Source of the DNA: Candidatus Brocadia sp. WS118
GTDB lineage: Bacteria; Planctomycetota; Brocadiia; Brocadiales; Brocadiaceae
Reading direction: 5' to 3'
Assembly: GCA_007618135.1 (NCBI GenBank)
Contig: PHFX01000149.1
Location: 1 to 64,000, forward strand
Length of the DNA: 64,000 nucleotides
Shown here: piece after piece, positions 53,123-62,915 of the stretch
Numbering within the stretch: position 1 is the first letter of the stretch
How the letters are laid out: every line of letters starts with the position of its first letter
Notes under the pieces: generated by a model
Told to the model about the DNA's origin: nothing
Database searches by the model: none
Seen by the model: only the letters and a program-made list of their open reading frames with translations
Made by a program: the position numbers and the translations under genes

Positions 53123-54850
53123 CTATCGTAAATACGCCTCTGTTACATATCGCCGCATCATATGGTTCGTGTTGAAATAATAAGCGATTTTGCTAATCGA
53201 ATTTTTCATAACCTTGATCCATTGGCTTCTGTCATGGTAATACATGGGAAGAATGAGGTTTTCCAGCTTGTAGTATAAGTCCTCAGCATCCGTTGCATCA
53301 TTAACAGGTATCAGCGATGACTCTACCGGCTTAGGGCCGATGGACCAGCCGGTTATTCCCTCGATGTGTCCCTCTATCCACCACCCATCCAGGATGCTAA
53401 AATTGATTACCCCATTGTGCGCTGCTTTCATACCGCTCGTACCCGATGCCTCCCGCGGACGTAAAGGCGTATTAAGCCATATATCAACTCCGGAAACAAG
53501 CTTTAAGGCTAGTTCAATACAATAATTTTTTAAAAATACGACTTTTATATTGTCATTAACGGTTTTTGTCATCTCAACAATTTTCTTGATAATATCTTTT
53601 CCAGGGGTGTCTTTTGGATGTGCCTTTCCTGAATAAATAATCTGAATCCTTCCTTTTTCACTAATTTTTAGAAGCCGTTCAAGGTTCAAAAATATTAAGT
53701 CTGCTCGTTTATACGAAGTAAATCTCCTTGCAAATCCAATTGTCAACACGTCCGGACGTATCTCTATCGCAGTATTTTTTTTTATGTAATCGACCAAACA
53801 GCCTTTTGCATGGAGGTGGGCTTCCCATATCTCTTCTTCGGGAATAATTTCTGATCGGACAAGCAACTCAGGTTCATTAGCCCAACCAGGGATATGTTTG
53901 TCGTACACGCGCTTAAAACTCTCACACGTCCAGGTAAATGAATGCACACCGTTGGTAATGGCATTAATTTCATAGCCAGGGAATAGATTTTTTGACACCT
54001 CACCATGCTTTTTCGCTACACCATTCACGTAGTTACTCAGATTGAGCGCAAGAAATGTCATATTTAAATAATGTTCTCCCCCGAGTCTTTTCAGTACCTC
54101 AAATGGAATTACCTCACCGAGCACTTTCTTTACCAGATCATAGGAAAACCGGTCATGACCTGCTTCAATGGGGGTATGGGTTGTGAAGACACACAAGTCT
54201 TTTACCTTGTTCGTATCCCAAATCCGATTTTCGTCCCAGACACTTTCAACATCGCGCTTGTTTAGCACAAGCAATTCCAGTGTCAAAAAACTGGCATGCC
54301 CTTCGTTCATATGGTACTTTTTGATGTGAAATCCAAGGGCATGAAGCATGCGTACGCCGCCAATGCCAAGTACGATCTCCTGTTTCAGCCGGTAATGCAC
54401 ATCACCACCATACAAAACGGCGGTAATTTCCCTGTCTTCTTTTGTATTCTCTTCAACATCGGTATCGAGGTACAATACGTTTACTTCTCCACCAGTAATA
54501 CTTCGTACGGTATAGCACCATGCCTGGATATAAACATTGCGCCCTTCGATTTGAATTTTAACCTTTTTCGGCAAGCGAACCATAAACCTGGATGGGTCCC
54601 AGTCTACCGGATATTCAACTTGTCTTCCTTCACCGTCAATATCCTGAGAAAAGAAACCCTTCTTTGAGATCAGGGTAACGGCAACAATCGGAATCTCTAA
54701 ATCAGCGCTTGATTTTATGGTGTCTCCCGCCAATACGCCGAGACCCCCGCTATACGTAGGAATATCATTGGTCAAACCGATTTCCATAGAAAAGTAGGCA
54801 ATCGTTGCATTGTTGTTAGTCATGGGTATTCGGACAGGTATACTGGTCAT
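53123..54850 (-). CDS. glgP: Alpha-glucan phosphorylase (short GT35 type)
   Basis: The protein is 575 aa and belongs to the shorter GlgP form without the long N-terminal regulatory domain. 'TIAYFSMEIGLTNDIPTYSG', 'GLGVLAGD', 'KKYHMNEGHASFLTLELL', 'FTTHTPIEAGHDRF', 'INAITNGVHSFTW' and 'GFARRFTSYKRADLIF' are in order. The pyridoxal-phosphate site is 'EASGTSGMKAAHNGVINFS'. It phosphorolyses glycogen-like glucans to glucose-1-phosphate. Anammox cells store glycogen, so this fits. It is not obviously part of lipid synthesis. Confidence 0.92.
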   Translation of the reverse strand: MTSIPVRIPMTNNNATIAYFSMEIGLTNDIPTYSGGLGVLAGDTIKSSADLEIPIVAVTLISKKGFFSQDIDGEGRQVEYPVDWDPSRFMVRLPKKVKIQIEGRNVYIQAWCYTVRSITGGEVNVLYLDTDVEENTKEDREITAVLYGGDVHYRLKQEIVLGIGGVRMLHALGFHIKKYHMNEGHASFLTLELLVLNKRDVESVWDENRIWDTNKVKDLCVFTTHTPIEAGHDRFSYDLVKKVLGEVIPFEVLKRLGGEHYLNMTFLALNLSNYVNGVAKKHGEVSKNLFPGYEINAITNGVHSFTWTCESFKRVYDKHIPGWANEPELLVRSEIIPEEEIWEAHLHAKGCLVDYIKKNTAIEIRPDVLTIGFARRFTSYKRADLIFLNLERLLKISEKGRIQIIYSGKAHPKDTPGKDIIKKIVEMTKTVNDNIKVVFLKNYCIELALKLVSGVDIWLNTPLRPREASGTSGMKAAHNGVINFSILDGWWIEGHIEGITGWSIGPKPVESSLIPVNDATDAEDLYYKLENLILPMYYHDRSQWIKVMKNSISKIAYYFNTNHMMRRYVTEAYLR

Positions 54851-54896: not shown

Positions 54897-56330
54897 CTAA
54901 TGTATGGGTTTATCAACAACTGCATGAGCAGCTTCTCGTATCGACTCAGACAGGGTGGGGTGAGGGAAAATCGTGTTTAGCAATTCATAAGCTGTTCCTT
55001 CGAGGATAGTAGCAAGCGACATACCCCACATCAATTCACCTACATTAGGACCTATGGCATGTACCCCTAATATTTCGCCGTATTTATCATCTGAAATAAT
55101 TTTTAAAAATCCATCTTCATAATCGCCGTCGATAATTGCCTTGCTGTTGGCAATAAGAGGAAATTTACCTACTTTTGTTTTATGTCCTCTCTTCTCCGCC
55201 TCCTCCTGGGTAAGCCCTATGCTCGCCACCTGTGGAAAACAATACGTCACTGCTGGTATCCCTTGATAATTAATCGGCATGGTTTCTTTTCCTGCAATGC
55301 GAGAAACGGCAAGCAATCCTTGATTTAATGCCTTATGGGCAAGAAGGGGGGGGCCGGTAATATCTCCCACAGCAAAGAGGTTTCTTTGGCTTGTTTCCAT
55401 AACCTCATTCGTTTGCAGATATTTTCCCTGGTAATTCACTGACAATTTTTCTATTCCGGTATTCGTCAAGGCTGGTGTTCTGCCTAATGCAAGGAGGAGA
55501 AGGTCAGCTTTTAGAAATTCTTCATCTTCACCTGTGGTGGCAGGGGGGTGAAGCATATCGTCTTTTCTCCGTATTCCCACCCTTACGCCGTTATCAATTA
55601 TAACCTTTTCTAAGGAGGTGTTTGTTAAAACGTTTATACCTCTCCTCCTGAAGATTTTTTGTAACGTTGAACTAACCTCTTTGTCCTCTGCCGGAAGGAT
55701 ATCACCGAAAAATTCAAGGATCGTTACCTTCGTTCCCAAAATATTAAAGAGATGCGCAAATTCAGTTCCAACGGCACCGCCACCCGCTATAACGATGGAT
55801 TTAGGGATTTCTTCCCTTAATAAGATATCATTACTGGTAAGAACGTATTTATTGTCGTGCGTGATATTCTTGGGAATGGAAGGGACGGATCCGGTAGCCA
55901 GGATAACGTTTTTTGCTGTGATTCTACGAATGTCTGTTCCGTCTTTTTTTATTAAAACAGTATTTGGTGATATGAGTTGTCCTTCGTCCTGAAAAACCTC
56001 AACTCGATTTTTTTTGAGGAGAAACTGAACGCCCTGAAACAATCTTGTAATGACAGCCTCTTTTTGCCGATGCAACTGCGCATAATTAATTTCTACTTTA
56101 TCGGCCGTAATTCCAAATTCTTTCGCCCTGAGAAAACGCGTATAAAGGTCAACTGAATGGAGAAGCACCTTTGTTGGAATACAGCCCCAATGCAAGCAGG
56201 TACCACCAACCTTGTCTTTCTCGACAAGAGCGGTTTTTATTCCAAGTTGAGCGGCTCTTATCGCCGCAGAATAACCGCCTGGTCCACCACCAATGACTAC
56301 GAGATCAAAGGCAGAGTTTTCCTCAGGCAA
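54897..56330 (-). CDS. lpd: Dihydrolipoamide dehydrogenase
   Basis: This 477-aa flavoprotein has the FAD site 'DLVVIGGGPGGYSAAIRAAQ', the redox disulfide in 'KVGGTCLHWGCIPTKVLL', the NAD site 'SIVIAGGGAVGTEFAHLFNI' and the C-terminal His-Glu pair in 'NTIFPHPTLSESIREAAHA'. It reoxidises dihydrolipoyl groups of 2-oxoacid dehydrogenases or the glycine system. No E1/E2 genes are adjacent. The start is a TTG at 56330, just after the stop of a 42-codon gene whose 3' end carries its GGAGGG ribosome site, so the two are coupled. Confidence 0.92.
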   Translation of the reverse strand: MPEENSAFDLVVIGGGPGGYSAAIRAAQLGIKTALVEKDKVGGTCLHWGCIPTKVLLHSVDLYTRFLRAKEFGITADKVEINYAQLHRQKEAVITRLFQGVQFLLKKNRVEVFQDEGQLISPNTVLIKKDGTDIRRITAKNVILATGSVPSIPKNITHDNKYVLTSNDILLREEIPKSIVIAGGGAVGTEFAHLFNILGTKVTILEFFGDILPAEDKEVSSTLQKIFRRRGINVLTNTSLEKVIIDNGVRVGIRRKDDMLHPPATTGEDEEFLKADLLLLALGRTPALTNTGIEKLSVNYQGKYLQTNEVMETSQRNLFAVGDITGPPLLAHKALNQGLLAVSRIAGKETMPINYQGIPAVTYCFPQVASIGLTQEEAEKRGHKTKVGKFPLIANSKAIIDGDYEDGFLKIISDDKYGEILGVHAIGPNVGELMWGMSLATILEGTAYELLNTIFPHPTLSESIREAAHAVVDKPIH

Positions 56331-56661: not shown

Positions 56662-58122
56662 TTATGACGTTACAGCCTCCATGACTGGTTTTGAGACAGT
56701 TGTAGTGCTCGATTTGTAGCAATCTTTATAATAGTCACCTGAATCGTACAATTCCTTTAAATTCTGTAAGACCTGTTCAAACACTTGCTTCCAGTCAGAA
56801 CCTACCCTGAAGGCAAACATGGAGTTTCTCGGATTTTTCGTCGTCTTAATCGAATTTCTGAAACGCATCCTCAAGTTATCGCCTGCGTAAATATGATCAT
56901 AGACATATTGCATACCTTCTATAAAATCTTCCAGGGTCATGTCTACCAAGCGATGAACCACATGGGCCGTGTCATAGTATTGCCAATCCTCAGGATAATT
57001 CTTCCTGAAAATCCTCTTTTCCGAATCTAGTCTTGCATAGAGTTGTGTCTTAGGGAAGGGGCAGTTGATGCCAAAGGTAAGAATGTCAATATTATTCTCC
57101 AATATGAACTCAGTCATTCTCTTAAAGGAGTCTTTATCATCTCCGTCTGCTCCAAATACAACTGAACCCCAAACGACTAAGCCGGCGTTGTGTATTTTCT
57201 GAATACAATCAAAATAACTGTCCGTGCCTAACTTAAGGTTTACCCGTTTATTCATCTTCTCAAGAACGGCTTCATTGGTGGACTCAATACCGATGAGCAT
57301 ACCAAAATTGCCGCTTTTTGCCATATAGTCTAACGTTTCAGGGTCTTGGGAGATATTTAAGGCAGTGAACCCTAACCAGTCCTTATGTATGCCGCGATCC
57401 ACCATTCCTTTAAAAAGATCTCTCGCCCTCTGGTTTGACTGTTTTCCATGCCCATAGAAGTTATCCTCTGCAAGCATTAAACCCTTATAATCTGTGGCCT
57501 CCATCTCCGCAAGAACGTCCTCGTAAGGTCTTTCCCTGAATTTTCTGCCCTGAAAAGTAGGTACACTGCAGAAATCACAGTAGTTCGGGCATCCTTTCGT
57601 TGTGACAATAGAAGAAAACTTATAGTTATATTTCTTCTTCATGAGTTCCCGATTTGGATATACCTTTTTCATCAAGCTGAGGGGGGGCAATCCTCCTTGA
57701 TAAATCTTCTTCAATTTTCCTGCTTCAAAATCTTTTATAACCTGGGGCCATACCTCTTCTGCTTCACCGACAAAGACGGAGTCAGCATAATTTGCCGCTT
57801 CTTCAGGCATCACGGATGCGTGTATCCCACCCATGATTACCGTCATACCTTTCTTCCTGCAAGCCTCAGCAATTTTATAAGCCCGGGGAGATTGATAGGT
57901 AACTGCGGTAATACATACCAGATCAACAGGTTTAAAGGTAAGTTCGCCGTTATCATCAATTGCCAATTCCAGATTCTCGTCAATAACATCAAAATCCCAA
58001 TCGCCTGGTGTAAGCGCAGCAACATAAGCAAGATTCAAAGGCATCTGAACTATTACGGTAATACTCTCTTCACCATGTCTACCCGGTTTGTGTGGGTTAA
58101 TCAACATCATTTTCCTTTTCAT
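56662..58122 (-). CDS. B12-binding-domain radical SAM enzyme (class B type)
   Basis: The protein is 486 aa. The N-terminal ~140 residues form a cobalamin-binding-like fold: 'MMLINPHKPGRHGEESITVI', 'YVAALTPGDWDFDVIDENLE', 'MTVIMGGIHASVMPEEAANY' and 'ADSVFVGEAEEVW'. The radical SAM core then has the cluster motif in 'TTKGCPNYCDFCSVPTFQGR' (CxxxCxxC) and 'LMLAEDNFYG'. The C-terminal ~120 residues are helical. Relatives include HpnP and BchE-type enzymes, which do difficult C-C and C-H chemistry. In the proposed ladderane loci an enzyme of this class is a prime candidate for ring formation; this is hypothesis. The ribosome site GGAGGT overlaps the stop of the upstream desaturase-like gene. Confidence 0.88.
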   Translation of the reverse strand: MKRKMMLINPHKPGRHGEESITVIVQMPLNLAYVAALTPGDWDFDVIDENLELAIDDNGELTFKPVDLVCITAVTYQSPRAYKIAEACRKKGMTVIMGGIHASVMPEEAANYADSVFVGEAEEVWPQVIKDFEAGKLKKIYQGGLPPLSLMKKVYPNRELMKKKYNYKFSSIVTTKGCPNYCDFCSVPTFQGRKFRERPYEDVLAEMEATDYKGLMLAEDNFYGHGKQSNQRARDLFKGMVDRGIHKDWLGFTALNISQDPETLDYMAKSGNFGMLIGIESTNEAVLEKMNKRVNLKLGTDSYFDCIQKIHNAGLVVWGSVVFGADGDDKDSFKRMTEFILENNIDILTFGINCPFPKTQLYARLDSEKRIFRKNYPEDWQYYDTAHVVHRLVDMTLEDFIEGMQYVYDHIYAGDNLRMRFRNSIKTTKNPRNSMFAFRVGSDWKQVFEQVLQNLKELYDSGDYYKDCYKSSTTTVSKPVMEAVTS

Positions 58123-58126
58123 AAAT

Positions 58127-59581
58127 TTACCTCCACTTCTCCATGATTAAATTAGCTACACCCCATCCAGAAGACACAACAGCACAAATTCCAGGACCCG
58201 GTCGCGTCCAATGACCGGTTAAATACAGATTTTCAATTGGCGTCTGTTGAGGAAGTCTATTATCCCCTATTTGATCCACACTAACCTCCCATCCGTAAGC
58301 GGCCCCATCGGTATTTAACGTGTATCGCTCTAAAGTTTTTGGGGTAGCCGCCTCAATCACTTCAATATATTTTTTTATATCAGGAAGGTATTTTTCTATT
58401 CGGTTTATTGTGTCTGCGATTAAACTTTCTTTAAAAGATTTCCAATTCGTAATATCTTTATACTTCTCTTTCATAAGATAAACTACCACAGAAATTATCT
58501 GTTTGTCCTGCGGAGCAAGCGTTGGACATATTGACGTGGGAATTGAAACATACAACCATTCAGCATCGCGGTAACTGGCATCCGTGGCAGTATGATAAAA
58601 TCCCCTTTTTAATTTGCGTAAATCGGCGCCTTTGCCAATACCTAAATATAAAAGGGAAAAGGAGCAACTTTCCCTCATTTCTTCAATACTGCTAAGGAAC
58701 GATGTCTCTAATTTACCGTCTAGTAATTCAAAAAAAGTCTGCCGGACATCAATATTCGAGACAACTAACTTCGCCGGTATCTCTCTTCCACCTTGCAATT
58801 TAACGCCACGAGCGTTTTTTGCATCAGAGAGAATTTTTTCGGCTTTGCATGATAGCATAATATGCCCGCCAAAATCAATAAATTTCTTAAAAATTGCATT
58901 AGCAAACTCTTGCGTACCACCAACCGGGAAAAAAGCGCCGTCTTTGAGATAGTTGATCATCATTTGACACATACCAATAGCAGAAGCTTGAGCAGGGGGG
59001 AGGCCTATGTAACCCCATTGACCGGAAAGTATCATCTTGATCTCATCGTTGAAGAAAAAAGTATCCAACATATCGCGATAGGTCATGTTTTTGTATTTAT
59101 CAATAATCTGGCTTTTCTCATGGTTGAAAGTAGCGCGATAGAGTTTTACAAATTCTTGAAAAAAATTCTTTATGTTACTTTTCTCCAAGGGGAATCGGTC
59201 TTGCAACCGGATGGTATACTCATCCAAATCGGCTGGAATTTCAATGCTAAAATTGGGGAAAATTAGATGATCCATCGGATCGAGGGGATAAAATGCCATC
59301 TCTATCGCCAGCGTCTTAAAGCAGCGGCCAACAATACCCCATTTTCCACATCCTCCAATATGATGAACTGCCGCATCAAAATTGAAACCTTTTCTTTTAA
59401 AGGACGTACAATAACCACCAGGGATAGAATGTTGTTCTATGATGAGTACCTTTTTGCCGGTTTTGGCAAGAAATGCACCGCAAACCAAACCAGCTACGCC
59501 GGCGCCAATTACAATTGCGTCATAAGAAGGATACAATGCATCTTTTTTTGTGGATTGAATGCATCGGCTGGGAAGTATCAT
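58127..59581 (-). CDS. Phytoene-desaturase-like (CrtI/CrtN family) FAD oxidoreductase
   Basis: The protein is 484 aa. The FAD motif 'DAIVIGAGVAGLVCGAFLAK' is followed by 'KVLIIEQHSIPGGYCTSFKR' and 'GFNFDAAVHHIGG', 'FFPVGGTQEFANAIFKKFID' in the middle, and the C-terminal FAD contact 'IENLYLTGHWTRPGPGICAV'. CrtI relatives dehydrogenate or isomerise polyenes. Carotenoid genes are absent here, and the neighbours are fatty-acid-type, so an acyl substrate is likely. A role in making the polyunsaturated precursor of ladderanes has been proposed for such genes. The start overlaps the end of the KSbeta gene; coupling replaces a clear ribosome site. Confidence 0.88.
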   Translation of the reverse strand: MILPSRCIQSTKKDALYPSYDAIVIGAGVAGLVCGAFLAKTGKKVLIIEQHSIPGGYCTSFKRKGFNFDAAVHHIGGCGKWGIVGRCFKTLAIEMAFYPLDPMDHLIFPNFSIEIPADLDEYTIRLQDRFPLEKSNIKNFFQEFVKLYRATFNHEKSQIIDKYKNMTYRDMLDTFFFNDEIKMILSGQWGYIGLPPAQASAIGMCQMMINYLKDGAFFPVGGTQEFANAIFKKFIDFGGHIMLSCKAEKILSDAKNARGVKLQGGREIPAKLVVSNIDVRQTFFELLDGKLETSFLSSIEEMRESCSFSLLYLGIGKGADLRKLKRGFYHTATDASYRDAEWLYVSIPTSICPTLAPQDKQIISVVVYLMKEKYKDITNWKSFKESLIADTINRIEKYLPDIKKYIEVIEAATPKTLERYTLNTDGAAYGWEVSVDQIGDNRLPQQTPIENLYLTGHWTRPGPGICAVVSSGWGVANLIMEKWR

Positions 59582-59584
59582 GAA

Positions 59585-60826
59585 TTATGGTTTGTATTTG
59601 GAGATAATTAAGGACGAATTGTTTCCCAATCGCGAGAAGGTGTTGATAAGGACATTTTTGACGGGTAAGACCCTTGCGATATTGGCTACATAGTCTAAAT
59701 CACATTCAGGATCTCGTTCTTTATAATTGATTGTGGGTGGTACTGTATGAGTATTGATGGACATTATTGCAGCTATTGTTTGCAACGCCCCTGAGGCGTC
59801 ATAGCATTCACCGGTCATAGATTTTATGGCGCTTACCGGAATAAGAGTTGCCCGCATCCCAAAAACTTCTTTGATGACCTTTGTTTCCATTGCGTCACCA
59901 TAAGTACCAGAATAAGCATTTGCCGATAGGTAAGAAATGTCATTTAACGTCAGATTTGCATCATGAATGGCGCTCATCATGGCTCGTTTGTTGCCGTCTA
60001 TCTGAAAATCCCTACTAATGGCCATTTTCGGGTCAAATGCGGTACCGTACCCTTTTATTTCAGCATAAATATGCGCATTTCGCTTCAGTGCATTCTCTAA
60101 GGTTTCCAGAATAACCAAGGCGGAGGCTTCGCCAATAACCATTCCGTTGCGTCTTTTATCAAAGGGTGCGGAGATTTCCTGGCTTCCATCCTTACTCCCC
60201 GATAATATCTTTGAATTATGCGCACCCCAAAAGATGTCATGTGTTAAACCATGCACACCGCCGGCGATTACAGCCTTTACCCGGCCCATTCGAAGAAAAT
60301 CAGAGGCATAGATAATTGCATCTACACTGCTTGTTACGCCGTTTGAGATGGTGGTATTCAACCCCGTAGCTTTACAAAAGATTGAAGCGCGGCTGGCAGG
60401 GGCGTTCAATACGGTATTGGGGAAATCCATAGGATTCACATAATTAGGGCCTTCACGCAAAGACTGAAAATCGAAGGAACTAATGCTGTCAATGCTTCCG
60501 TAAGTCGAGCCAACGACAATGCCCAATTCATCACCAGTGTAAGTATTATTTTCTAAATTAGCATCTTTTATGGCGAGAATGGTTGCAGACGACACAAGAA
60601 GGGAAGTTCTATCAATATGCCGTATTCCCTTTTGTCCAAGGTAAACCTTTGCATCAAAATCTGAAATTTCACCAGCCTGTTTGCTATGAAATTTACTTAC
60701 ATCAAACAAGGTAATGGGTTTAATGCCCGATACACCATTGGTTAAATTATTCCAAAAAGCTTCTTTATTGCTGCCAACCGGCGATATAACAGATACACCG
60801 GTAACAACAATTCTTGTTTTTTCCAT
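59585..60826 (-). CDS. Ketosynthase-like protein lacking the catalytic triad (KSbeta / chain-length-factor-like)
   Basis: This 413-aa FabF-fold protein aligns along its length with the neighbour at 60878. Where active enzymes have the nucleophile Cys (TACA), it reads 'TISNGVTSSVDAI'. The first His (HGTGT) is replaced in 'SANAYSGTYGDAMETK', and the second His (MGH) is Glu in 'SMTGECYDASGALQ'. All three catalytic residues are gone while the fold motifs ('RIVVTGVSVISPVGSNKEAF', 'PFDKRRNGMVIGEASALVIL', 'SRLGNNSSLI') remain. This is how chain-length factors of type II polyketide systems look. It probably pairs with the active KS as a heterodimer. The start at 60826 is chosen for the AGAGG site. 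Confidence 0.85.
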   Translation of the reverse strand: MEKTRIVVTGVSVISPVGSNKEAFWNNLTNGVSGIKPITLFDVSKFHSKQAGEISDFDAKVYLGQKGIRHIDRTSLLVSSATILAIKDANLENNTYTGDELGIVVGSTYGSIDSISSFDFQSLREGPNYVNPMDFPNTVLNAPASRASIFCKATGLNTTISNGVTSSVDAIIYASDFLRMGRVKAVIAGGVHGLTHDIFWGAHNSKILSGSKDGSQEISAPFDKRRNGMVIGEASALVILETLENALKRNAHIYAEIKGYGTAFDPKMAISRDFQIDGNKRAMMSAIHDANLTLNDISYLSANAYSGTYGDAMETKVIKEVFGMRATLIPVSAIKSMTGECYDASGALQTIAAIMSINTHTVPPTINYKERDPECDLDYVANIARVLPVKNVLINTFSRLGNNSSLIISKYKP

Positions 60827-60877
60827 CATCAACCTCTGTTTAACAATGCAGATTCAGTTCCAGAGAACTGTTTGATT

Positions 60878-62104
60878 TCAAGTTTTGCCAGTAAATTTTT
60901 TCACTACCAGACAACTATTGTTGCCGCCAAATGCATGGGCATTATTCAGTGCAATAGTTACCTTTTGCTTTCTTGCTACATTGGGTACATAATCCAGATC
61001 ACATTCCGGGTCTGGCGTTTCATAATTGATCGTAGGGGGTATAATATCGTTTTGAACGACCAAGGCACACGTAATGGCTTCTATAGCGCTGGCAGCACCC
61101 ATGGTATGCCCCATCATCGATTTTATTGAACTGATTGCGAGATGTTCTGGTTTATTTCCAAATACCTTTTTAATGGAGATCGTTTCTGCCTTATCATTCG
61201 CCGGGGTTCCTGTTCCATGGGCACTGATATACTGGACATCCTCAGGTTTCAGACTTGCGCTCATTAAGGCTTTTTTCATTGCAGAAACAACACCCTCTCC
61301 ATCGGGATGAGGGATGGTAATGTGATAAGCATCGCAACTCAGACCATAACCAATGATTTCGGCATAAATGGTGGCATTTCTCTTCACCGCATGATCGAGC
61401 GACTCTAAAAGGAGCATGCCGGCTCCTTCACCAACCATCATACCTTTCCGGTTTTTATCAAATGGCTGACATATCTCCGGTGCGATAGCGCCCAATCTCG
61501 CGAATCCTGTATACGCTACTTTTGAAAAAGGGTCGGAACCTCCTGCAACCATCATATCCACCCGACCAAACTTAATCAAATCATACGCATACCCAATTGC
61601 ATAATTGCCTGCTGCACAGGCAGTAGGAATAATGGTATTTGGGCCTTTAAAACCAAACTCAATTGCGACGTTGGCCGGGATATTATTGCAGGGATGCATC
61701 AAAAAGAGATCAGGGTCTACCTTGTCTTCTCCGTCTTTGTGCCTTATATAATTGACTTTCTCAAGGATCTGTATTTCTCCTGCCGTCGTTCCTACAGATA
61801 CGCCAATCCTTTCTAAATCGACTTTACTCAAGTCAAGCTTAGCGTCCTCCAATGCAAGTAAGGTGGCTGCAATTGCAAATTGGGAACCTTTACCAATTTT
61901 TTTCAGAACTCCATTTTTAATATAGTCAGAATACTTGAAATTTTTTACTTCGCACCCTTTGTGAACCTTATATTCTGAAGTATCAATACACGATACATCT
62001 TCAATTCCTGAAACCCCCGCAATAAGGTTGCTCCAAAATCTTTCCTTGCCCGACCCGATGGGAGTAATCATTCCTACGCCTGTTATAACCACGTGTTTAT
62101 TCAT
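60878..62104 (-). CDS. 3-oxoacyl-ACP synthase II-type ketosynthase (FabF-like, KSalpha)
   Basis: The protein is 408 aa with a complete active site: Cys in '[20 protein letters not shown]', His in '[16 protein letters not shown]' and His in '[20 protein letters not shown]'. '[20 protein letters not shown]' and '[10 protein letters not shown]' complete the thiolase fold. It condenses malonyl-ACP with an acyl chain. In ladderane loci similar FabF paralogues are thought to build a dedicated chain. It lies 51 bases upstream of its inactive partner. The ribosome site is weak, suggesting coupling with fabZ upstream (12-base gap). Confidence 0.9.
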
Positions 62105-62116
62105 AACAATATTATG

Positions 62117-62572
62117 TCAACCCGATATTAAAGCGTCCTTGTCTGCGATTCCAAAAGTCAAATTTGCCTTAGCAACAACCTTTTCGCCGACCTTTACCGA
62201 AGCCTGAATAATAGCTCCTTTGGATACAATTTTTTCAACAATAATTTCTATGAAGAGTTGATCGCCGGGGAAGATAGGTTTTGTAAACCTGGCATTATTC
62301 ACTGATGCCAATAAAAAAACCGCATTGGCGCTATTTTGTGTGGAAAGGCTTTTCTTGAAAAGTATGATGGAAGCCTGAGCCATCGCCTCAATGATCAAAA
62401 CCCCAGGCATGATGGCGAAATCGGGGAAATGCCCAACAAAGACAGGTTCATTGCCGGAGACATTCTTTATACAAACAATTCTTTTCCCTTCTTCAAACTC
62501 AACAACTTTATCGATAAACAAAAAAGGATATTTTTGAGGAAGAAGGGACCGTATTTCCTCAAAAGACATCAT
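62117..62572 (-). CDS. FabZ-type 3-hydroxyacyl-ACP dehydratase
   Basis: The protein is 151 aa. The start is 'FEEIRSLLPQKYPFLFIDKV', where Gln-Lys replaces the usual His-Arg of 'PHRYPF'. The catalytic His is in 'VFVGHFPDFAIMPGVLII' and the Glu in 'EAMAQASIILF'. 'VNNARFTKPIFPGDQLFIEI' follows. It is a second, different FabZ in the region (compare 51823). It dehydrates the 3-hydroxyacyl-ACP made by the operon's ketosynthase. No ketoreductase or enoyl reductase is in the operon, so those steps are shared with general fatty-acid synthesis or omitted, which would leave double bonds. Confidence 0.9.
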   Translation of the reverse strand: MMSFEEIRSLLPQKYPFLFIDKVVEFEEGKRIVCIKNVSGNEPVFVGHFPDFAIMPGVLIIEAMAQASIILFKKSLSTQNSANAVFLLASVNNARFTKPIFPGDQLFIEIIVEKIVSKGAIIQASVKVGEKVVAKANLTFGIADKDALISG

Positions 62573-62645: not shown

Positions 62646-62915
62646 TTAAGATGAAAGTTTTCCGCTTTCTGTCAGAACAGATTTTGTTAAGTCAATGGTG
62701 GCACTTAAAGAAGTAATGTCAACCAGTTTTTCTTCAGGGATTTGCACTTTAAATTTTTTCTCAATAAGCGCAAGGATTTCAAGAGCCAAGAGGGAATCTA
62801 TTTCAAGGTCTTTAAAAAAATTTGCATCTCTTTTATCCCAGATTTCTTTTTCATCCAATTCTGTAACCTCAGCGACTATCGCAGTTACACCTTTTTCAAT
62901 TTCTTCAGCGTTCAA
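62646..62915 (-). CDS. Acyl carrier protein
   Basis: This 89-aa protein has the phosphopantetheine Ser in 'FKDLEIDSLLALEILALIEK', a longer first helix than AcpP, and 'IPEEKLVDITSLSATIDL' near the end. 'LEIDSL' replaces the usual 'LGADSL'. It carries the growing chain on a thioester. As the first gene of the core operon it appears dedicated to this pathway. The start is a TTG with AAAGGAGA nine bases upstream. Confidence 0.9.
   Translation of the reverse strand: MNAEEIEKGVTAIVAEVTELDEKEIWDKRDANFFKDLEIDSLLALEILALIEKKFKVQIPEEKLVDITSLSATIDLTKSVLTESGKLSS

Follow-up and report, generated by a model that had tools for sequence, protein, structure and literature searches.

A CrtI-like oxidoreductase and a B12-type radical SAM protein at the end of a conserved anammox operon, a candidate module for ladderane biosynthesis

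The window analyzed here, a stretch of 64,000 nucleotides from contig PHFX01000149.1 of Candidatus Brocadia sp. WS118, carries genes for a CrtI-like oxidoreductase and a radical SAM protein (rSAM). The pair ends a six-gene operon, ACP-FabZ-FabF-KSx-CrtI-rSAM, which is the Brocadia counterpart orthologous to kuste3603-3608 and is referred to here as module A. The features of the operon are the following:

62646..62915, minus strand: dedicated acyl carrier protein (ACP; kuste3603 type; PF00550, 53.0 bits)
62117..62572, minus strand: FabZ-type 3-hydroxyacyl-ACP dehydratase (kuste3604 type; PF07977, 97.0 bits; NF000582, 154.4 against a cut-off of 113)
60878..62104, minus strand: FabF, active ketosynthase (kuste3605 type; catalytic residues kept; match to 9s5h_B)
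59585..60832, minus strand: KSx, ketosynthase-like, CLF-like partner without the catalytic Cys and His (kuste3606 type; residue swaps; match to 9s5h_C)
58127..59581, minus strand: CrtI-like FAD oxidoreductase (kuste3607 type; 484 aa, ATG start; PF01593, 51.8 bits, cut-off 19.8)
58123..58135, minus strand: rSAM ribosome-binding site (Shine-Dalgarno GGAGGT), which shares bases with the CrtI stop TAA (read directly from the sequence)
56662..58122, minus strand: B12-binding-domain radical SAM protein, module-A copy (kuste3608 type; 486 aa, ATG start; PF04055, 53.7 bits, cut-off 29.5; PF02310, 42.3, cut-off 32.1)

The minus-strand junction of the last two genes reads ...ATGGAGAAGTGGAGGTAAATTTATGAAAAGG, with the CrtI stop TAA at 58129-58127 and the rSAM ATG at 58122; 4 nt lie between them, and the GGAGGT overlaps the stop. 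An earlier sequence-only reading had reported these two frames and the overlap of ribosome site and stop, which proved exact on re-reading, and had concluded that the two proteins are made together, in agreement with their place within one six-gene operon. Tight coupling is not peculiar to this pair, as the gap ahead of CrtI is equally short: the KSx stop lies 3 nt ahead of the CrtI start in the window, and across related loci the KSx-CrtI gap has a median of 3 nt (at most 20 nt in 40/45) and the CrtI-rSAM gap a median of 8 nt (at most 20 nt in 38/43). The adjacency of CrtI and rSAM exceeds chance. Wherever an anammox contig extends over both genes, they adjoin, and of the 47 loci that come from named genomes, 44 have rSAM directly behind CrtI, the exceptions being two contig ends and one CrtI gene split by a frame change ahead of rSAM. 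Scans for promoters and terminators returned sites no commoner than in shuffled sequences.

The gene order matches the ACP-FabZ-FabF-noncanonical FabF-PD-SAM radical order published for Kuenenia (PMC4790861, Table 2) and is kept across all anammox families sampled. Kuenenia stuttgartiensis kuste3603-3608 has the same six genes, order and odd dead-ketosynthase residues as the window, and nothing of substance differs beyond the species (genus Brocadia here); in genome G031, a Kuenenia to judge by its gene neighbours, the orthologous rSAM is 87% and CrtI 70% identical to the window proteins. The FabF residues C163/H296/K328/H333 are conserved in 23/23 module-A FabF proteins, and the closest structure is 9s5h_B (1.7e-263). 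In KSx, Cys is replaced by Val and the two His by Asn and Glu, with Lys retained, which agrees with Table 2 of Rattray; all of the noncanonical residues (Val163, Asn298, Lys328, Glu333, Arg392) are present in the window copy, and its best match, 9s5h_C (2.4e-255), belongs to the same PDB entry as that of FabF. Orthologues of the two are separate chains in 9s5h and 9s5i, the latter of which also holds ACP. The nearest solved chains to the window ACP are 7auf, 9s5i_E and 7qv0_D, and those to FabZ are in 8ayd, 8ayi and 7qv0, which contains FabZ together with ACP.

An active ketosynthase therefore adjoins a ketosynthase-like partner lacking Cys and His, the arrangement of the type II PKS KS-CLF polyene synthases (aryl polyene ApeO-ApeC and ishigamide types). 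These systems likewise have FabZ and ACP in the operon, and the window FabF also matches the ketosynthase 6kxd (1.4e-97); they differ in that the anammox dead partners retain Lys. We know of no CrtI-like or rSAM gene in such polyene systems.

The CrtI-like protein scored below the cut-offs for the CrtI phytoene desaturase (TIGR02734, 159.7 bits against 238.1) and CrtISO (TIGR02730, 165 bits against 586.9). Its model (pLDDT 84) was nearest to 4rep (TMq 0.81), with 4dgk also matching (TMq 0.60). The fold and FAD motif are common to CrtI, CrtISO and gamma-carotene desaturase, but the window protein is ~21-27% identical to annotated plasmid CrtI and differs from these enzymes in its acyl-ACP gene context and separate clade, since five annotated carotenoid CrtI proteins form a clade of their own (100/99 support) with the anammox proteins outside. 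A relative is encoded on a Pseudalkalibacillus plasmid amongst ACP, KAS III and FabZ genes. CrtI is the fastest-evolving of the six genes, with 54-62% identity in the deeper families against 70-81% for rSAM. The module A genes all follow the species tree, and co-evolution was gauged from identities.

In rSAM, the CxxxCxxC motif (C178/C182/C185) is invariant in the alignment. The nearest folds to its model (pLDDT 75, weak around the cluster-binding loop) were AprD4, MgmA, CysS and OxsB, of which CysS was crystallised with a pantetheinylated substrate. The C-terminal part of rSAM (residues 397-470) is helical. Domain layout, motif and predicted fold are as in these enzymes and in HpnJ, HpnR and BchE; however, full-length profile scores lie far under every family cut-off (82, 77.7 and 64.8 for HpnJ, HpnR and BchE, against 577.6, 650 and 481.35). 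TIGR04072 (rSAM_ladder_B12) was rejected as the family of this protein (89.5 against a cut-off of 360), and the best protein for that profile in the Brocadia genome (316.8) is on a different contig. A B12-binding domain is predicted and cobalamin use is putative; a caution comes from AprD4, first among the structural neighbours, which has the B12 fold but is not known to bind cobalamin.

Orthologues of the module-A rSAM (at least 70% identity) were, by our count, present in 58/62 Brocadiales genomes, and no match above 37% was obtained in 13 genomes of sister orders. CrtI and rSAM strictly co-occur in anammox genomes. A paralogous rSAM of the kuste2803 type is near-universal in anammox bacteria as well, where it has its own FabF-KSx pair and no CrtI alongside (module B; contig C237 in the WS118 genome). 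The rSAM, FabF and KSx of module B (kuste2802-2805 in Kuenenia) are 54%, 46% and 39% identical to the window proteins, and the operon differs in that AcpS replaces ACP/FabZ and CrtI is absent. In Scalindua and other early families, module B runs on into an OYE/BaiCD-like reductase and in part also includes an enoyl-CoA hydratase and FabG, the latter in Scalindua and family f3.

The rSAM, FabF and KSx proteins separate into identical A and B groups. The rSAM was duplicated jointly with the other two, and as module B lacks CrtI, the partner it keeps in both modules is the KS pair. CrtI is thus not required by every rSAM of the kuste3608/kuste2803 kind, and an exclusive CrtI/rSAM pair was rejected. 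The link between these two families expected in ladderane producers holds as strict co-occurrence, but the unit is rSAM with FabF and KSx. A further cluster, of Desulfotalea type and found at kuste3335-3352 in Kuenenia, also contains FabF, a dead KS, a CrtI-like protein (~30%) and rSAM (~35%). Unlike module A it is accessory: its CrtI paralogue occurs in only 8/62 anammox genomes, so that the cluster is not needed by all and was rejected as a set of universal ladderane genes.

Outside the class of the anammox bacteria, two planctomycetes, G075 (QQUA01000023.1 'PNC 17') and G190/G424, also carry ACP-FabZ-FabF-KSx-CrtI-rSAM, both with FabG within the operon and a second FabF-KSx-rSAM set. Contamination is unlikely, because the proteins are only ~27-58% identical to their anammox counterparts and the contigs are long (480 and 880 kb) with 58-72% GC, against 42% in the window. 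An alpha-subunit search recognised no hydrazine synthase alpha in G075 or G190: the matches were partial, scoring 34.5-34.7 bits and covering half of the model, and a C-terminal match reached 25% in G075, with nothing significant in G190. Judged by this subunit, both genomes appear to be non-anammox. The window operon has no ketoreductase and no enoyl reductase, as had been pointed out before, but FabG is found in these cassettes and in early-family module B. The suggestion that the missing ketoreductase accounts for retained double bonds fails, since a ketoreductase is needed to make them.

The genes kuste3603-3608 were proposed for ladderanes by Rattray in 2009, when enzymes of these two kinds were put forward as ladderane makers (PMC2649909), and the CrtI-rSAM pair itself, already proposed then, is not new. 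Among the candidate clusters of Kuenenia, these genes rank second by expression level, and no new fatty acid appeared when they were expressed in E. coli (Javidpour 2016, PMC4790861). In that work the cognate AcpS, from module B, was tried only on its own, many related proteins were insoluble, and cobalamin is mentioned nowhere in the text (PMC4790861). The E. coli test could have failed because cobalamin goes unmentioned and because no single strain combined the operon with the cognate AcpS and a cluster ketoreductase.

The biosynthesis of fused cyclobutanes has been an open question since 2002. We propose that the pair may form the last part of module A in a pathway by which anammox bacteria make ladderanes, for which we infer the substrate, the polyene intermediate, the role of each oxidoreductase and the order of steps. 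FabF and the catalytically dead KSx would act as a KS/CLF-type pair. Helped by FabZ, the dedicated ACP and a ketoreductase whose gene lies elsewhere, they would assemble a short, conjugated polyenoyl-ACP, a polyene that would result from no enoyl reduction taking place. The CrtI-like flavoprotein may then adjust the ACP-bound polyene by hydride chemistry, through double-bond isomerisation or a dehydrogenation extending conjugation, so that the chain can fold back. The B12-type rSAM would start a radical cascade closing the ladder, and the ladder-bearing chain would be elongated via ordinary fatty acid synthesis. To this scheme of KS/KSx polyene, CrtI adjustment and rSAM ring closure we assign an even chance, and rSAM is a good candidate for the ring former, at evenly balanced probability.

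The computed formula of both [5]-ladderanyl and CH3(CH=CH)5CH2- is C12H15. As the two are isomeric, all of the unsaturation can come from a synthesis that omits enoyl reduction; a KS/KSx-KR-DH route of this kind gives the [5]-ladderane oxidation level, and the desaturation that the sequence-only reading placed before radical cyclisation is not needed. Going from pentaene to ladder also takes hydrogen shifts, which are invisible in the formula. We counted in favor of the proposal the FabG of related cassettes, the CysS-like fold of rSAM and the acyl-ACP neighbours of the Pseudalkalibacillus relative, and against it the negative E. coli expression, the fast evolution of CrtI, unexpected if it were a strict partner, the lack of CrtI in module B and the place of AprD4 as top rSAM neighbour.

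CrtI-family enzymes introduce conjugated double bonds, the fold here is that of carotenoid desaturases, and CrtI always stands ahead of rSAM in the operon, all of which favor the order put forward by Rattray and the sequence-only reading, repeated desaturation of a saturated acyl-ACP by the CrtI-like protein followed by rSAM cyclisation. We nevertheless consider this order unlikely: CrtI substrates carry double bonds beforehand (also PMC2649909), the KS/CLF-like pair with a dehydratase already yields unsaturation with no net desaturation required by the formula, and module B does without CrtI. The CrtI-like protein is correspondingly improbable as the maker of the double bonds and is as likely an isomerase, or the enzyme of a redox step on a polyene already formed. 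Methylation is the reaction of most known B12-type rSAM enzymes, but ladderanes carry no extra methyl group. A cobalamin methyltransferase, AprD4-like dehydratase or other tailoring role for rSAM, with the rings closed elsewhere, would fit its AprD4, MgmA and CysS folds and its weak profile matches (PhpK, HpnR and HpnJ, all far under cut-off), but seems a minor prospect given the non-methylating ring-forming or rearranging relatives BchE, OxsB, HpnJ and PbsB (PMC13142503) and two anammox-wide rSAM copies that each adjoin a chain-building KS pair.

The homologous cassettes in two planctomycetes without a recognisable hydrazine synthase alpha could also mean that the product is another polyene or cyclic lipid and that the anammox bacteria conserve it through the history of their lineage; this is quite improbable for a cassette that is near-universal in anammox genomes, absent from sister orders and so highly expressed in Kuenenia (PMC4790861). 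A carotenoid or hopanoid function, to which the distant similarity to CrtI, CrtISO, HpnJ and HpnR might point, is effectively ruled out, in keeping with the earlier reading: every curated cut-off was missed by far, the carotenoid CrtI clade excludes the anammox proteins, the neighbours are acyl-ACP enzymes, and kuste3607 cannot replace CrtI, giving no lycopene from phytoene (PMC4790861). Altogether, the earlier interpretation is partly supported and the observation behind it is confirmed.

For anammox bacteria, a saturated-chain desaturase is no longer required once the formula is considered, and modules A and B offer a narrower, testable minimal set in place of 34 candidates. It is possible, if somewhat doubtful, that organisms other than anammox bacteria produce ladderane-type (polycyclobutane) lipids or the polyenes from which these directly arise; less likely is the extension that the two anammox modules serve the two ladder types, [5] and [3]. 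The two apparently non-anammox hosts allow a check of the link between cassette and lipid.

The source genome is that of an anammox bacterium of the genus Brocadia, and the operon in the window is the orthologue of kuste3603-3608, listed and proposed for ladderane synthesis by Rattray et al. 2009 (PMC2649909) and Javidpour et al. 2016 (PMC4790861), where the last two genes are named 'phytoene desaturase' and 'SAM radical enzyme'. The CrtI-like/radical SAM (rSAM) pair that the sequence-only reading had singled out is real, with exact coordinates for both ORFs, and is already a published candidate.

Genes of the operon in the window
62646-62915, minus strand, ACP, operon gene 1
62117-62572, minus strand, FabZ, operon gene 2
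60878-62104, minus strand, FabF, operon gene 3
59585-60832, minus strand, KSx (ketosynthase-like partner of FabF), operon gene 4
58127-59581, minus strand, CrtI-like oxidoreductase, operon gene 5
56662-58122, minus strand, rSAM, operon gene 6

The residues of the dead ketosynthase KSx are those tabulated for Kuste3606 (comparison with PMC2649909), and close orthologues have solved structures for FabZ with ACP (7qv0), ACP (7auf), and FabF with KSx (9s5h), also with ACP (9s5i). The Shine-Dalgarno of the rSAM gene was indeed seen to overlap the CrtI-like stop. Coupling of the two genes is not particular to them; because the KSx/CrtI junction is packed as tightly, it is a property of the operon. 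Downstream on the same strand are genes for a dihydrolipoyl dehydrogenase (54897-56330) and an alpha-glucan phosphorylase (53123-54850), in whose place other Brocadiaceae have ORFs of similar length.

An rSAM orthologue (at least 70% identity) was found in 58 of 62 Brocadiales genomes and a paralogue, rSAM-B (50-54%), in 55, most of the absences being in fragmented genomes, and 57/62 carry the CrtI-like gene. Families f1-f4 have hydrazine synthase (HZS) alpha and are therefore anammox lineages. No rSAM match above 37% was obtained in 13 genomes from other orders of the class. In 44/47 loci from the public genome collection, the gene after CrtI is rSAM; two of the other three stop at a contig edge and one has CrtI divided over two frames. 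Conservation in the deeper families is uneven (rSAM 70-81%, FabF 69-75%, KSx 59-70%, CrtI mostly 54-62%). A frame change breaks the CrtI-like gene at L131:10001-11462 (Ca. Brocadia carolinensis) and G014:C8:35419-36874, reflecting assembly error or real decay. HZS alpha had no match in the whole source genome; several genomes of the genus have it, and its absence is probably an assembly gap.

The possibility that the closest relatives of either protein are carotenoid or hopanoid enzymes was checked. The best NCBIfam matches of the CrtI-like protein were CrtISO (165 bits; cut-off 586.9) and crtI_fam (159.7; cut-off 238.1), and in a tree that also included annotated relatives from plasmids, and whose deeper branches are unsure, five carotenoid CrtI formed their own clade (100/99) with the anammox proteins outside. 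The structure nearest to its predicted model (pLDDT 84) is gamma-carotene desaturase 4rep; an orthologue made no lycopene (PMC4790861). The closest plasmid relative (30% identity) is surrounded by KAS III, ACP and FabZ genes. This gene, at L151:2974-4479 (Pseudalkalibacillus plasmid NZ_CP156675.1), lies within a fatty-acid/polyketide-like cluster (KAS III, HAD-IIIC, ACP, ECH, FabZ, PPTase) with no carotenoid gene in view.

In rSAM the CxxxCxxC motif is invariant, and PF04055 and PF02310 score above their cut-offs. It passed no cut-off of the curated family profiles, including TIGR04072, named after ladderanes. Its predicted model has pLDDT 75 and is poor at the cluster loop (173-194); the folds closest to it are AprD4, MgmA, CysS, OxsB and TsrM. 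Cobalamin use by the protein is predicted as likely. The best TIGR04072 ('rSAM_ladder_B12') match in the source genome, at G000:C267:30167-31510 (L020:8162-9589), reached 316.8 bits, below the cut-off, and sits apart from both modules described below; the family name does not suit the anammox-wide rSAMs.

A second rSAM in the source genome (contig C237), 54% identical to that of the window, has AcpS, a FabF (46%) and another dead KS (39%) as its neighbours and no CrtI; together they make up the kuste2802-2805 set (module B; the window operon is module A). The rSAM tree has well-supported clades A, B and C, the last comprising lone copies from family f3. FabF and KSx showed the same A/B split in a quick tree without bootstrap, in which the B_KSx group includes one long-branched non-anammox row. 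In the alignment, all A and B FabF retain the catalytic residues and all A and B KSx have lost them, Lys excepted. We read this, on sequence grounds, as duplication of a FabF-KSx-rSAM unit, with CrtI in A only. The proposal that CrtI-like and rSAM form the functional unit did not hold, as module B has rSAM and the KS pair without CrtI; the unit is judged to be larger than the pair.

The modules are <10 kb apart in some f3 genomes and within about 25 kb in several Scalindua. The Scalindua B operon extends further, with genes for an OYE/BaiCD-like flavoenzyme of 675 aa, an enoyl-CoA hydratase and FabG. The flavoenzyme is retained in families f2 and f3, and FabG also in f3.

Extended module B operons, early anammox families
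L062:984-9165
L075
L064/L065
L059
L061
L055

Lone additional rSAMs without KS or CrtI neighbours were seen in Anammoxibacter (f2; A-type; L053:9380-10831, L056:8442-9863) and f3 (clade C; L058:9366-10802, L060:9111-10553, L066:9584-11017). A separate 168-aa piece in the source genome, from the B12-domain half of a related rSAM (L019:9299-9805; G000:C158:23298-23804; 51-53% identity over 115 aa), is likely a relic.

Judged by sequence, a related cassette occurs outside anammox, rarely. The genome scan gave one non-Brocadiales locus, in isolate PNC 17, with ACP (52%), FabZ (47%), FabF (54%), KSx (31%), CrtI (38%), rSAM (58%), rSAM (53%), FabF (39%), KSx (27%) and FabG in a single run. One further carrier was found among 154 genomes of its class (G190), with ACP-FabZ-FabF-KSx-CrtI (41%)-rSAM (58%)-FabG and, 300 kb away, a FabF-KSx-rSAM set without CrtI.

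Ladderane-candidate cassettes in two apparently non-anammox planctomycetes from a different class
L139:6801-17298 (QQUA01000023.1), PNC 17
L144:9248-16041 and L145:7245-10973, G190

In an even phylum-wide draw, 36/392 genomes matched at E 1e-75, 35 of them Brocadiales; the other (G424; family f63, 90% complete, 1% contaminated) has coordinates and scores identical to G190. The PNC 17 and G190 rSAMs are sister to anammox clade A (99/94), and both genomes gave only a partial, weak HZS alpha match. 'Ladderane' clusters reported in other bacteria (PMC9902471, PMC11968836) are antiSMASH-type labels, a much looser statement than a full cassette, of which no published account outside Brocadiales was found in the open-access literature searched.

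[5]-Ladderanyl is a C12 unit with five rings, and [3]-ladderanyl has three cyclobutanes and a cyclohexane. By formula bookkeeping, [5]-ladderanyl, C12H15, equals CH3(CH=CH)5CH2-, obtainable from acetyl and five malonyl units if every cycle halts after dehydration and the carbonyl is reduced later. [3]-Ladderanyl, C12H17, has one unsaturation fewer; the OYE/BaiCD-like reductase of extended module B is a possible source of the lost double bond. E. coli is not known to synthesize cobalamin de novo. The negative E. coli expression result is not decisive, because cobalamin is nowhere mentioned in the main text, module-B AcpS was expressed only separately and the pellet held most of the proteins from the later operons (PMC4790861).

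The chemistry of the sequence-only reading, desaturation followed by radical cyclisation, is half supported: ring formation by rSAM is reasonable, but by the formulae a desaturase is not the best origin for the double bonds. Since the [5]-ladderanyl formula is that of a pentaene, chain building by a KS/CLF-like pair, KR and DH, without ER, gives the right oxidation level and would make the polyene. Closure from the pentaene is formally an isomerisation, but with hydrogen shifts. With the oxidation level already supplied by chain building, we infer that the CrtI-like enzyme would isomerise or rearrange the polyene instead of creating it, and that rSAM would carry out the radical-initiated closure of the rings.
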